Part shown: piece after piece, positions 1,907-49,985 of the stretch | How the letters are laid out: each line of letters starts with the position of its first letter | Position numbering within the stretch: the stretch's first letter is position 1 | Source: Halomonas meridiana | GTDB lineage: Bacteria; Pseudomonadota; Gammaproteobacteria; Pseudomonadales; Halomonadaceae | Direction: 5' to 3' | Assembly (NCBI RefSeq): GCF_009846525.1 | Contig: NZ_CP024621.1 | Coordinates: 186,001-250,000, forward strand | DNA: 64,000 nucleotides | Notes under the pieces: model-generated | Databases searched by the model: none | What the model was told of the DNA's origin: nothing | Seen by the model: only the letters and a program-made list of their open reading frames with translations | Made by a program: the position numbers and the translations under genes

Positions 1907-4900
1907 ATGAAAGATTTGGTGAAAGTACTCAAATCGCAATCTCAGTCCGAAGAGTTTGACGCGATCAAGATTACCCTGGCGTCGCCGGACATGATTCGCT
2001 CCTGGTCCTTCGGCGAGGTGAAGAAGCCTGAGACCATCAACTACCGTACCTTTAAGCCGGAACGGGATGGTTTGTTCTGCGCCAAGATTTTCGGCCCGGT
2101 CAAAGACTACGAGTGCTTGTGCGGCAAATATAAGCGCATGAAGCACCGCGGTATTATCTGTGAGAAGTGTGGCGTCGAAGTCACCAAAGCAGCCGTGCGC
2201 CGTGAGCGCATGGGCCACATCGAGCTGGCATCGCCGGTCGCTCACATTTGGTTCCTGAAGTCTCTGCCGTCGCGTATCGGCATGTTCCTCGATATGACCC
2301 TGCGTGATATCGAGCGCGTGCTCTATTTCGAAAGCTTCGTGGTCATCGACCCCGGCATGACCACGCTGGAGCGTGGTCAGCTGCTCAACGACGAGCAGTA
2401 CTTCGAAGCGCTGGAAGAGTTCGGCGATGACTTCGACGCCCGCATGGGTGCCGAAGCGGTCCAAGAGCTGCTGAAAGACATCGATCTGGAAGAAGAGATC
2501 AACCATCTGCGTGAAGAAATTCCGCAGACGAACTCTGAAACCAAGATCAAGAAGCTGTCTAAGCGCCTGAAGCTGCTGGAAGCGTTCTACCACTCCGGCA
2601 ATGCGCCGGCGTGGATGGTCATGGAAGTGCTGCCCGTGCTACCGCCGGATCTGCGTCCGCTGGTACCGCTGGACGGTGGCCGCTTCGCGACATCGGATCT
2701 CAACGACCTTTACCGTCGTGTGATTAACCGTAACAACCGCCTGAAGCGTCTGCTGGACCTCAACGCGCCGGACATCATCGTGCGCAACGAGAAGCGTATG
2801 CTCCAGGAAGCGGTCGACGCGCTGCTGGACAACGGCCGCCGTGGCCGTGCGATTACCGGTTCCAACAAGCGCCCGCTGAAATCCCTGGCCGACATGATCA
2901 AGGGTAAGCAGGGTCGCTTCCGTCAGAACTTGCTCGGTAAGCGCGTGGACTACTCTGGCCGTTCGGTCATCACCGTCGGTCCGACCCTGCGTCTGCACCA
3001 GTGTGGTCTGCCGAAGAAAATGGCGCTCGAGCTGTTCAAGCCGTTCATCTACTCCAAGCTGCAGTCGCTGGGCCATGCGTCCACGATCAAAGCGGCGAAG
3101 AAGATGGTCGAGCGCGAGCTGCCGGAAGTGTGGGACATCCTGGCCGACGTTATTCGCGAACACCCGGTACTGCTCAACCGTGCGCCAACGCTGCACCGTC
3201 TGGGTATCCAGGCGTTCGAACCGCTGCTGATCGAAGGTAAGGCTATCCAACTGCACCCGCTCGTCTGTGCGGCCTACAACGCCGACTTCGACGGTGACCA
3301 GATGGCGGTCCACGTACCGCTGACCCTGGAAGCACAGCTCGAAGCACGTGCGCTGATGATGGCGACCAACAACGTGCTGTCGCCTGCTAACGGCGAGCCG
3401 ATCATCGTCCCGTCGCAGGACGTTGTTCTGGGTCTGTACTACATGACCCGTGAGAAGATCAACGCCAAAGGCGAAGGCATGGTGTTCTCTGACCTCAACG
3501 AGGTGGAGCGTGCGTTCGGCACTCAGTCCGTGTCGCTGCATGCCCGCGTCAAGGTGCGTCTGGATGAAGTGGATGTCGACGAAGAGACCGGTGAGCGTTC
3601 CGAGCATCGTCGCCTTTACGACACCACCGTGGGTCGTGCGCTGCTATTCCGCATTCTGCCGGAAGGCGTGCCGTTCGCGCTGATCGATCAGCCGATGAAG
3701 AAGAAGGCGATCTCCAGCCTGATCAACGAGGTATACCGTCGTGCGGGCCTGAAGCCCACGGTCATCTTCGCAGACCAGCTGATGTACACCGGCTTCCGTC
3801 TGGCGACCTGGTCCGGTGCCTCGATCGGTGTGAACGACTTCGTTATCCCCGAAGCCAAAACCGAAATCGTCGACGCGGCAGAAGCAGAAGTTAAAGAGAT
3901 CGAAGATCAGTTCTCTTCCGGTCTGGTAACGGCAGGCGAGAAGTACAACAAGGTCATCGATATCTGGTCCAAGGCCAACGATAAAGTGGCCAAGGCGATG
4001 ATGGTTGGCATCTCGAAAGAGACGGTCGTCGATCGTGACGGTAATGAAGTCGAGCAAGACTCCTTCAACAGCGTCTTCATCATGGCCGACTCCGGTGCCC
4101 GTGGTAGTGCCGCCCAGATCCGCCAGCTGGCGGGTATGCGTGGCCTGATGGCCAAGCCGGATGGCTCGATCATCGAAACGCCGATCGTGGCCAACTTCCG
4201 TGAAGGTCTGAACGTACTGCAGTACTTCATCTCGACCCACGGTGCACGTAAAGGTCTGGCGGATACGGCTCTGAAAACGGCTAACTCCGGTTACCTGACC
4301 CGTCGTCTGGTCGACGTGGCGCAGGATCTGGTCATTACCGAGACTGACTGTGGCACCGAAAACGGCCTGACGCTGCACCCGATCATCGAGGGTGGCGACA
4401 TCATCGTACCGCTGTCTCAGCGCGTACTGGGCCGTGTCGTCGCGCAGGACGTGGTCGATCCGAGCACGGAAGAAGTGCTGATTCCGCGCAACACGCTGCT
4501 GGACGAGAAGTGGTGTGCGTCGCTGGACACCATGGGCGTGGACGAGATCGTCGTACGCTCCACGATTACCTGTGACACCGCGCACGGCGTGTGTTCGTCC
4601 TGTTACGGTCGTGACCTTGCCCGTGGCCACCAGGTCAACATCGGTGAGTCTGTCGGTGTTATCGCCGCCCAGTCGATCGGTGAGCCGGGTACCCAGCTGA
4701 CCATGCGTACGTTCCACATCGGTGGTGCGGCATCGCGTTCTTCTGCGGTGGATAGCGTTCAGGTCAAGCACGGCGGTAAAGTGCGCCTGCACAACATCAA
4801 GCACGTTGAGCGTGCCGACGGCAAACTGGTCGTGGTGTCTCGTTCGAGCGCCCTGGCGGTCGCCGACGATCACGGTCGTGAGCGTGAGTACTATAAGCTG

Positions 4901-6121
4901 CCCTACGGTGCTGAGCTCTCCGTACGCGACGGTGACGTGGTCGATGCCGGTGCGGTCGTGGCCAAGTGGGATCCGCACACGCACCCGATCATTGCCGAGG
5001 TAGAAGGTAAGGCGCAGTTCATCGATCTCGACGAGGGTGTCACCATGCACCGCAGCGTCGATGAGATGACCGGTCTATCGTCTATCGAAGTCATCGAATC
5101 GGCCGCACGCCCGATGGCAGGTCGTGACAAGCGTCCGATGGTGATGCTGAAAGACGCTGCTGGCGAGTACGTTTCTGTATCCGGCTCCAACACGCCGGTT
5201 CAGTACCTGCTGCCGGGCAACTCGATTATCTCCGTAGATGATGGCGCGACCATCGGCGTCGGTGAAGTCGTTGCTCGTATTCCGGTCGAGGCGTCTGGTA
5301 ACAAGGACATCACCGGTGGTCTGCCGCGCGTGGCCGACCTGTTCGAAGCGCGTAAACCGAAAGAGTCTGCCATTCTGGCGGAAATCAGCGGTGTGGTGAG
5401 CTTCGGCAAAGAGACCAAAGGTAAGCGTCGTCTGACGATTACCCCGGAATCTGGCGATCCGTTCGAAGCGCTGATCCCGAAATGGCGTCAAATCGCCGTG
5501 TTCGAAGGTGAAGCGGTCGAGAAGGGTGAAGTGATCTCCGATGGCCCCAGTAACCCGCACGATATCCTGCGTCTGCTGGGTGTTGCGGAACTGGCCAAGT
5601 ACATCACGGCTGAAGTCCAGGACGTTTATCGTCTGCAGGGTGTTGGCATCAACGACAAGCATATCGAAGTGATCGTGCGTCAGATGCTGCGTAAGGTAGA
5701 GATCACCGACTCCGGCGACTCTGACTTCATCACCGGCGACCAGGCCGAGCTCGTGCGCGTCCTCGAACAGAACGCACGACTCGAGAAAGAAGGTAAGTTC
5801 CCGGCCAAGTATCAACGCTTGCTGCTGGGTATCACTAAGGCCAGCTTGGCCACTGAATCGTTCATCTCCGCCGCGTCGTTCCAGGAAACGACCCGCGTAC
5901 TGACCGAAGCAGCGGTCACCGGCAAGCGCGACTACCTGCGCGGCCTGAAAGAGAACGTGGTGGTTGGACGTCTGATTCCGGCAGGTACCGGTCTGACCCA
6001 CCACGCAGAGCGTCGTCGCAAGCGCGAAGACGTAGAGCGTCTGTTCAACCCCTCGGCGACCGAGGTAGAGCAGGAGCTTGGTGCTCAGTTGACCGCCCTG
6101 GATTCAGACGACGATCTGTAA
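1907..6121 (+). CDS. rpoC: RNA polymerase subunit beta prime
   Basis: Largest RNA polymerase subunit, 1404 residues (1407 in E. coli). The catalytic Mg-binding motif NADFDGD is at residues 458-464. An N-terminal zinc site is formed by Cys70, Cys72, Cys85 and Cys88, and a second Cys cluster lies in [15 protein letters not shown] further on. The trigger-loop region [19 protein letters not shown] is intact. A GAGCC ribosome-binding site precedes the ATG. No clear terminator follows the TAA; the 190-base gap to rpsL carries a new promoter instead. Confidence 0.99.
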
Positions 6122-30950: not shown

Positions 30951-30963
30951 TGGTGAGAGGCAC

Positions 30964-31042
30964 CACGACTCCCTACGCCGGCGTTATCCGGTTCAGGTTC
31001 GAAGGGTGCTTCTCAGCCGCTGGGCGGCGCCCCTGTCGTTGG
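30964..31042 (-). promoter_or_regulatory. TPP riboswitch (THI element)
   Basis: The minus strand carries the conserved core: AGGGGCGCC, GGCTGAGA, ACCCTT, GAACCTGAACCGGATAA and GCGTAGGGA in the right order and spacing. A short P1 helix, CGAC/GTCG, closes it. Binding of thiamine pyrophosphate should lower thiM-thiE expression. Only this upstream copy is seen. Confidence 0.95.
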
Positions 31043-31093
31043 TGGCTACTATCCTAGCCTTGGACGGAGCTGTAAAGCCCCGCCGGAAGAGAC

Positions 31094-49020: not shown

Positions 49021-49152
49021 TCAGTCCGCCGAGCGCTGAATGGCTTCGCCGCCCTGTTCGATATCTTGCCCCATACCGCGAACGGTATTGCAGCCACTCA
49101 TTACCAATAGCGTTGCCAACAGTAGGATGCCTAGTGCGATGGTACGTTTCAT
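49021..49152 (-). CDS. entericidin-type lipoprotein
   Basis: 43 residues: MKRTIALGILLLATLLVMSG then Cys of a lipobox (VMSGC) and NTVRGMGQDIEQGGEAI. This matches the entericidin A/B family of small lipoprotein toxins/antidotes linked to stress. Start chosen for AAAGACC and length. Only one copy is present, not the usual ecnA-ecnB pair. Confidence 0.9.
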   Translation of the reverse strand: MKRTIALGILLLATLLVMSGCNTVRGMGQDIEQGGEAIQRSAD

Positions 49153-49425
49153 CGGTCTTTCCTCATGCCTCAGTATGCCCATGCGAGCGTCTTGGTGTGA
49201 TGAGTAACATAAGCGTTGTGGCATTCGGCCGCCACTCGGAAACGCGGGTTTTGGTCACGTTGTGCCAACGACGGGGGCAAGGAGGCGACGTGCCGTGCGG
49301 TTTTGTCGCATGTGCCAGTTTGCTACATGAAAATTAGCCATCGGTGGCATGGCGCGACCGCCTCGTGAGCTTGAGTTATTTTTTAAGTTTATGTTTTTAA
49401 TAAATTTATTTTTTATTTTTCACGA
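49153..49425. other. gap with T-rich tract
   Basis: About 270 bases with no credible gene. From 49,371 to 49,420 the DNA is strongly AT-rich (repeated T and A runs), unlike its GC-rich neighbours. Such a tract just before the small-RNA promoter could act as an UP element or bind nucleoid proteins. Confidence 0.5.
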
Positions 49426-49454
49426 TTGGCCCAAAGCCTGCAGTACTCTAGATA
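49426..49454 (+). promoter_or_regulatory. possible promoter of the small RNA
   Basis: TTGGCC (49426-49431) and TAGATA (49449-49454) with a 17-base spacer, directly after the AT-rich tract. The start would be about 49,461. A moderate match; no GacA palindrome (TGTAAG-N6-CTTACA) was found upstream. Confidence 0.45.
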
Positions 49455-49460
49455 GATATG

Positions 49461-49677
49461 AAGACCTGCAGTCGCCACGACGTCAGTATGACAGGAACGT
49501 TTAACAGCGTGAGCAGGCTGACAAGCAACTCAGGAAGGCAGGATGCCTAGTATGTAACAGGGAGGTGAAGGACGCTCAGCCTGCTCACTCTCATCGACAT
49601 AGGACGTGTTGATCATCGATGCCAAGGAGTGGCCGCGATGCAAAACAGCCATCTCGCTTTTGTGAGGTGGTTTTTTT
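49461..49677 (+). ncRNA. probable CsrB/RsmZ-type regulatory RNA
   Basis: About 217 bases that look like an RNA which sequesters the translational regulator CsrA/RsmA. Seven GGA motifs lie at 49494, 49533, 49541, 49561, 49570, 49602 and 49626, several in the CsrB-like contexts CAGGAAG, CAGGATG and CAGGGAG. One GGA is in the loop of an AGGC-AGGAT-GCCT hairpin. A perfect 13-bp helix, GTGAGCAGGCTGA (49509-49521) with TCAGCCTGCTCAC (49576-49588), encloses four of them. A T-tract terminator ends it. The 5' end is uncertain and the family call is inferred from these patterns. Confidence 0.75.
49649..49677 (+). terminator. terminator of the CsrB-like RNA
   Basis: CCATCTC/GAGGTGG stem (one G-U pair) with loop GCTTTTGT and seven T after it. 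Confidence 0.85.
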
Positions 49678-49853
49678 GCGTCGATATGTATACGTAAGTC
49701 CCTGATACAGATGGTTGTCATGTGCTCATGGCGTGACTTGCACAGCATTTGTACAGATGAAGGTTCGGTTTTGGTCTATCCTTTCGTTTACACCAAAATT
49801 GAGCGGTTAGAAGACGTCAACGTCGCAGCCGTGTACTTTCAGGGACAAACGCT

Positions 49854-49985
49854 ATGGCGATGGTATTGATGTTGGGCATGTTCGTCCTGTTTTTGGGGTT
49901 TTCAGGGATCGGTGTGTACATGATGTTCAAGACATCATTGATGACTTTCGCCGATGATCGAGACGATAGGCCGCCCGATATGTAG
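49854..49985 (+). CDS. small single-pass membrane protein
   Basis: 43 residues, unrecognised. A hydrophobic Met-rich helix (MVLMLGMFVLFLGFSGIGVY) is followed by a short polar, acidic tail ending in DDRDDRPPDM. AGGGA is nine bases before the ATG, and a strong terminator follows 23 bases after the stop. So it is a likely real small gene, standing alone after the CsrB-like RNA. Function unknown. Confidence 0.6.
   Translation: MAMVLMLGMFVLFLGFSGIGVYMMFKTSLMTFADDRDDRPPDM

Follow-up and report, generated by a model that had tools for sequence, protein, structure and literature searches.

The closest described counterparts of the RNA considered here are CsrB and CsrC and the RsmX, RsmY and RsmZ RNAs, which have no long reading frame, carry many GGA motifs in hairpin loops or single strands, end in an intrinsic terminator and occur in hosts that make CsrA. 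The consensus of the GacA box is TGTAAG-N6-CTTACA. Two further systems are worth considering, namely CrcZ and CrcY of Pseudomonas, with their repeated CA-rich Hfq motifs (AANAANAA), and GlmY of the enterobacteria, a decoy for RapZ that is driven by GlrR/QseF, IHF and sigma-54. Members of the Halomonas group are used in the production of bioplastics and ectoine. In a table published in 2020, the molecular-mimic RNA of the Gac/Csr system of Halomonas anticariensis is entered as unknown (PMC7366521), and in the open-licence literature, judged mostly by titles, we recognised no report of a CsrA sponge in Halomonas or Vreelandella or of one driven by sigma-54.

Here, we describe a predicted small RNA in a 64,000-nucleotide stretch of Halomonas meridiana DNA (the window), together with homologous loci in related genomes (Table 1). 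The RNA has the features of a CsrA-sequestering RNA and lies behind an arrangement of elements that suggests a different input.

Results

Table 1. Coordinates of the RNA, its predicted control elements and related features (window positions unless a locus or contig is named)
Feature	Position	Strand	Basis or remark
Entericidin-like lipoprotein, upstream neighbour	49021..49224	-	PF08085, 37.7 bits
Upstream activating site (TGTCGCATGTGCCAGTTTGCTACAT), predicted enhancer for an NtrC-type activator	49304..49328	+	Conserved in homologs
IHF-like site, degenerate (TAAGTTTATGTTT)	49384..49396	+	One mismatch to YAAN4TTGNTW
Sigma-54-type promoter TTGGCCCAAAGCCTGCA	49426..49442	+	GG 49428-49429, N10, GC 49440-49441
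Predicted small RNA, about 226 nt	49453..49678	+	Start inferred from -12 element
Closing helix, 5' arm	49509..49521	+	10 of 13 pairs changed on both sides
Hairpin displaying GGA 49541-49543	49536..49548	+	Predicted fold and sequence
Closing helix, 3' arm	49576..49588	+	Perfect 13-bp pairing with 49509-49521
Hairpin with AGGAC loop (GGA 49602-49604)	49594..49612	+	6 of 7 pairs changed on both sides
Hairpin GCCA-AGGAG-TGGC (GGA 49626-49628)	49621..49633	+	GGA in 25 of 29 rows
Intrinsic terminator and T-run	49641..49678	+	Terminator stem 49647-49672; fold, covariation
43-aa small ORF (MAMVLMLGMFVLFLGFSGIG...), downstream neighbour	49854..49985	+	Homolog search
Candidate NtrC-type response regulator, 472 aa	G000:C1:2928162-2929577		Adjoins histidine kinase (HAMP, CusS-like sensor domains)
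Two paralogous short secreted proteins	L172:5626-5925 and 4740-5054, near G000:C1:3769150-3770155	-	Same promoter layout
Secreted-protein gene of G002, then CsrB-like 15-GGA array, apparently under one promoter	L187, between 2456 and 3850		

A conserved, structured RNA with unpaired GGA motifs

The gap holds a real conserved structured RNA. When 97 relatives were searched at the DNA level, 49 had a match, and the single match outside the genus consists of 34 bases of the AT-rich stretch. The 30 best-scoring loci from these 49 genomes, less L005, a near-copy of L004, were aligned (alignment A1, 29 loci); in the resulting consensus fold 98.2% of cells are paired, and at 21 of the 40 base pairs both partners have changed with the pairing kept, a count that none of 500 shuffles equalled (mean 11.9) and that structures slid along the alignment did not approach (at most 11). 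Likewise, among 17 loci outside model building (15 distinct rows), 23 of the 40 pairs are changed on both sides and every locus has 6-8 GGA, although these loci were aligned to the covariance model R1, which favours its own structure. R1 matches the window at 49502-49678 (170.6 bits) and finds the RNA in 68 of the 82 genomes of the genus; in 201 genomes of the family, scanned under strict filters, the only matches in other genera were two to the terminator alone.

The features that the original prediction had read from the sequence are largely present as described. Seven GGA motifs begin at 49494, 49533, 49541, 49561, 49570, 49602 and 49626 and thus span 135 bases (49494-49628), the 13-bp helix is perfect, and the terminator has its T-run. 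A GGA displayed in the loop of a small hairpin was also seen, at three places (49541, 49602 and 49626) and not at one as had been proposed. The predicted RNA covers the proposed interval, 49461-49677, but its start fits 49453 better, as judged from the -12 element; the elements of control are found further upstream, at 49304-49442. Wholly within the predicted transcript no same-strand frame exceeds 30 aa, and a 72-aa frame on the opposite strand overlaps it.

Taken alone, the GGA count is only moderately unusual. At least seven GGA occur in one of 5110 windows of 138 bases (25-base steps, both strands of the 64 kb), located elsewhere; for the predicted 226-nt transcript, as high a count is reached by 64 of 5083 windows and, when the transcript itself is shuffled by dinucleotides, in 164 of 2000 shuffles. 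Conservation is therefore decisive. Two GGA places are occupied in all 29 rows of A1 and three more in 24, 25 and 26 rows, the AGGAC-loop GGA (49602-49604) being present in 24; a sixth is found in 15 of the 29, where the alignment has two registers. Each row has 5-9 GGA in the core, and GGA are unpaired with a mean probability of 0.81, compared with 0.38 for all triplets. In the window the region 49461-49680 folds more stably than its dinucleotide shuffles (MFE z-score -2.9), and the predicted fold leaves six of the seven GGA free of pairing, that at 49494 being mostly paired. The stem at 49621-49633 is part of this fold and absent from the consensus fold.

As tested, the RNA is not a member of an Rfam family. 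The whole Rfam library, run on the window and on 20 of the 30 homologous loci, gave no match to the RNA at the curated score; the models that had been suggested as a check, CsrB, RsmX, RsmY and RsmZ, and that of CsrC as well, found nothing in 49200-49900 even at E 10, nor did the CsrB model over the whole genome up to E 10. The sole Rfam match in the window at the gathering score is a TPP riboswitch at 30953-31044 on the minus strand (73.9 bits). Nonetheless, several features by which CsrA-sequestering RNAs are known are found, namely conserved GGA that are unpaired or in loops, no long frame, an intrinsic terminator and a host that encodes one CsrA. With its strong covariation and with the GGA kept in relatives, where their loss would have spoken against a CsrB/RsmZ-like reading, that reading is supported: the RNA very likely works like CsrB or RsmZ, and it likely sequesters CsrA.

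A predicted sigma-54 promoter with a distant activator site

The elements upstream of the RNA point to an input of another type. In an unselected count of all patterns of two 4-mers separated by 0-17 bases, TGGC-N8-TGCA was the commonest and occurred in all 27 upstream regions (the 30 loci without L005, L026 and L028); it contains GG-N10-GC, the spacing typical of sigma-54 promoters. The window has six copies of the bare sigma-54 motif, where chance would give 4.07, so the weight of the motif derives from its conservation and place. The distance from CATGTG of the upstream site to the T of TGG (-24) is 107-110 bp in 16 of the 27 sequences and 118-120 bp in the other 11, two classes that are one helical turn apart; in the window, the right arm of this site deviates from the consensus TTTTGTCGCATGTGTCAGTTTTATACAT. 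Between CATGTG and the promoter, 21 of the 27 homologs have an IHF-like YAAN4TTGNTW (letter shuffles: mean 0.9, largest 5), in each case with a copy 43-44 bp before -24; the window, with its degenerate site, is not among them. The genome has an RpoN gene, and the promoter class is very likely sigma-54. Promoter and core are separated by about 60 to 280 nt, depending on the locus (L017, L026 and others), and in L017 the intervening segment contains short repeats.

It could be argued that this is a standard GacA-controlled RNA of the CsrB/RsmZ kind, in which GacA would bind the upstream site, transcription would start from a sigma-70 promoter and the resemblance to sigma-54 would be coincidental. 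The genome does encode a UvrY/SirA/GacA protein (294.7 bits, cut-off 280), and GacS/GacA are listed in H. anticariensis, in the entry that gives the RNA partner as unknown (PMC7366521). However, no GacA box with up to three mismatches lies near the RNA (10 occur elsewhere in the window, against 12.5 expected), no sigma-70-type site was found there, though only 0.8 would be expected in shuffles, the TGGC-N8-TGCA pattern is invariant, and genes for secreted proteins share this layout down to its phase. We regard control by GacA as unlikely and return to the sigma-54 promoter.

The same layout precedes secreted-protein genes and a second GGA-rich RNA

When the pattern TGTCNCATGTGYCANTTNTANACA was scanned over the genome contigs of 84,980 species, it returned 22 records, every one of which bears the name Halomonas, Vreelandella or Halovibrio. 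The sequence GGANGGCA of the RNA core lies downstream in 20 of them and a sigma-54 motif stands at the expected place in 20, each of the 22 having at least one of the two. The upstream site with promoter matched in 55 of 275 genomes of the family, one of which, G268, belongs to another genus; there (L104, G268:C43:241713), the matching site and sigma-54 promoter stand before a small lipoprotein-like ORF.

A TGGCA variant of the promoter, again with the site, is matched in 68 of the 82 genomes of the genus, the matches in G029 and G060 looking like chance. Among 48 distinct such promoters that were collected, 39 stand before the signature of a short secreted protein (such as MMSKELLKKAGILGVSFGLMASPLAFA), at a distance of 117-121 in 38 and of 109 in one, where the pattern allowed 103-125. 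The rest comprise five with variants of the signature recognised by eye, three that stand before a GGA-rich stretch with no such ORF, and that of G268. In the host genome (G000), two paralogous genes of this kind, whose products have no Pfam or NCBIfam match, lie behind this layout between phoR-like and pst/phoU-like genes (names given by inspection). The leaders of the secreted-protein mRNAs carry a mean of 2.9 GGA (range 0-5; n=36, mean length 89 nt), often at the ribosome-binding site.

The three GGA-rich cases, with six more, make up a second GGA-rich RNA behind the same promoter layout, found in nine genomes (L201-L209), 211-283 nt long and with 6-7 GGA. Several of these GGA are paired in the predicted fold, so a sponge role is less certain for this RNA. 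The main model matches only its terminator. Assignment to RsmY or rsmX was rejected, as the matches fall on both strands and are all below gathering (the best 36.8 against 57 bits), the best lies on the strand opposite the predicted transcript, and several cover the terminator only.

A candidate activator that occurs with the RNA

In the host genome there are ten matches to the domain of sigma-54 activators; seven are strong. The driver is likely one of these seven, the NtrC-type activator listed in Table 1, with its neighbouring histidine kinase, as judged by distribution: full-length orthologs with 85-100% identity are present in all 10 RNA-bearing genomes tested, and one with 77% in G002, whereas the best matches in nine genomes with no RNA match and in G268 are 39-43% identical, so that G268 combines a match to site and promoter with no close relative of the candidate. 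Over 82 genomes, RNA and activator are both present in 66 and both absent in 11; two incomplete genomes (G046 and G053) have the RNA only, and three (G002, G029 and G060) the activator only, with partial activator matches in G029 and G060 (Fisher p 1.9e-9, without correction for kinship). G002 proved to hold a divergent copy of the RNA. The secreted-protein promoter pattern gives the same counts against the activator (66, 2, 3 and 11), two of its 66 being doubtful matches. On a poorly resolved NtrC tree, which does not separate gain from loss, the RNA-less genomes need two to three changes, and absence of the RNA may stem from a single change; these genomes are confined to few lineages, and the co-occurrence thus rests on few independent events. 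The candidate does not reach the cut-off for any of the 25 best NCBIfam models listed (for GlrR, 369.3 bits against 763), and so it carries no name.

NtrC itself, encoded in the window, was set aside as the driver because the RNA-less genomes have it too. CbrB was considered because of CrcZ, and with it the broader idea that a CbrA/CbrB-like pair drives, through sigma-54, an RNA whose target is a protein other than CsrA, in the way that CrcZ titrates Hfq/Crc. At L136:2082-6387 on the minus strand lies a pair that is similar to CbrA/CbrB in size and neighbourhood (by inspection; a 981-aa kinase, in which no transporter domain was matched, and a 465-aa activator); CbrAB is described in the abstract of one review as unique to the Pseudomonas family. 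CrcZ is reported to be driven by CbrB, a sigma-54-type activator (PMC8871633). However, the upstream site is unlike the CbrB consensus published there, TGTTAC-N12-14-GTAACA, when compared by eye, which led us to set CbrB aside as the driver; furthermore, AANAANAA is found in none of 29 homologs and the conserved triplet is GGA. Titration of a protein other than CsrA under such a pair is, in our estimation, very improbable, and CsrA remains the expected target.

The locus in relatives

The RNA travels with its neighbours. Of 18 neighbourhoods taken, L188 and L199 are without the locus and were left out of the counts. An entericidin-like homolog stands at all 10 RNA-bearing loci examined and a homolog of the 43-aa ORF at nine, compared with none of six RNA-less loci for either; in all six RNA-less genomes in which the locus was found, entericidin gene, RNA and small ORF are absent together and the flanking genes adjoin. 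The small ORF at nine of ten loci invites the thought that the RNA is the leader of that ORF, or else a base-pairing RNA with incidental GGA, but this is barely credible, as the GGA are constant and mostly unpaired whereas the stems vary by compensation, the terminator stands before the ORF, and the locus of G036 has the RNA with no match to the ORF.

The arrangement in G002 is different. At the same locus, a weak R1 copy (40.5 bits) was found, where a gene for a 170-aa member of the secreted family follows CATGTG and TGGCCTGGTTGATGC, which lie 121 bp from each other; past the stop codon of this gene there are 15 GGA in about 225 bases, followed by a GC-rich hairpin. Neither a terminator nor a sigma-70 site was seen in a scan of the stretch from gene to array, and the end of the array gave no terminator either; the Rfam CsrB model scores the array at 13.6 bits (cut-off 71). 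From this we infer that gene and array would form one transcript, with the sponge as the 3' part of a secreted-protein mRNA.

Discussion

Taken together, these comparisons make it probable that the gap encodes a conserved RNA likely to sequester CsrA, with predicted transcription by sigma-54 polymerase from a distant activator site, probably with the help of an IHF bend. In such a scheme, an activator bound at the distant site would, probably through that bend, lead the sigma-54 polymerase to transcribe the RNA, and each copy of the RNA would titrate CsrA through its 5-9 GGA. The sponge would then relieve CsrA repression of the secreted-protein genes that the same activator switches on; this is suggested by the leaders of their mRNAs, which lie behind the same promoter and each hold about three GGA, frequently at the ribosome-binding site, and repression of these mRNAs by CsrA is itself deduced from those leaders. 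A coherent feed-forward loop made of the RNA and the secreted-protein genes is plausible.

A more far-reaching proposal can be made, to which we give somewhat less than even weight: that in this genus CsrA titration has been wired to a histidine kinase and NtrC-type activator instead of, or besides, GacA; that a single sigma-54 regulon would comprise the secreted proteins and one or two sponges that free their mRNAs; and that the sponge may be related to, or derived from, the 3' part of an mRNA for such a protein, an arrangement perhaps still present in G002. What appears new, against the open-licence literature surveyed, is a sigma-54 promoter with an NtrC-type activator site as the input layer of a predicted CsrA sponge, and it becomes possible to test directly whether bacteria can connect the Csr switch to another sensory system. 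The Halomonas RNA is, moreover, a strong candidate for the kind of RNA that is missing from the Gac/Csr system of H. anticariensis.

It is informative to set this locus beside the known systems. GlmY is likewise a small RNA with an NtrC-type activator and sigma-54, both predicted here, and differs in that it is a decoy for RapZ and in that the Halomonas candidate falls below the GlrR cut-off. The likeness to CrcZ and CrcY is that the RNA would titrate a protein and stands behind a promoter of sigma-54 type with an activator site upstream, and IHF has been discussed for CbrB targets (PMC8871633); in contrast to those RNAs, the motif here is GGA and not CA-rich, the site is not the CbrB consensus and the candidate activator is another response regulator. 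From CsrB, CsrC and RsmX, RsmY and RsmZ, the Halomonas RNA is set apart by the want of an Rfam match, by its sigma-54-type promoter, by an upstream site that is not a GacA box, and by its distribution, R1 having found it in one genus only; with them it shares the absence of a long frame, the numerous GGA that are single-stranded or displayed in hairpin loops, the intrinsic terminator and a host that has CsrA.
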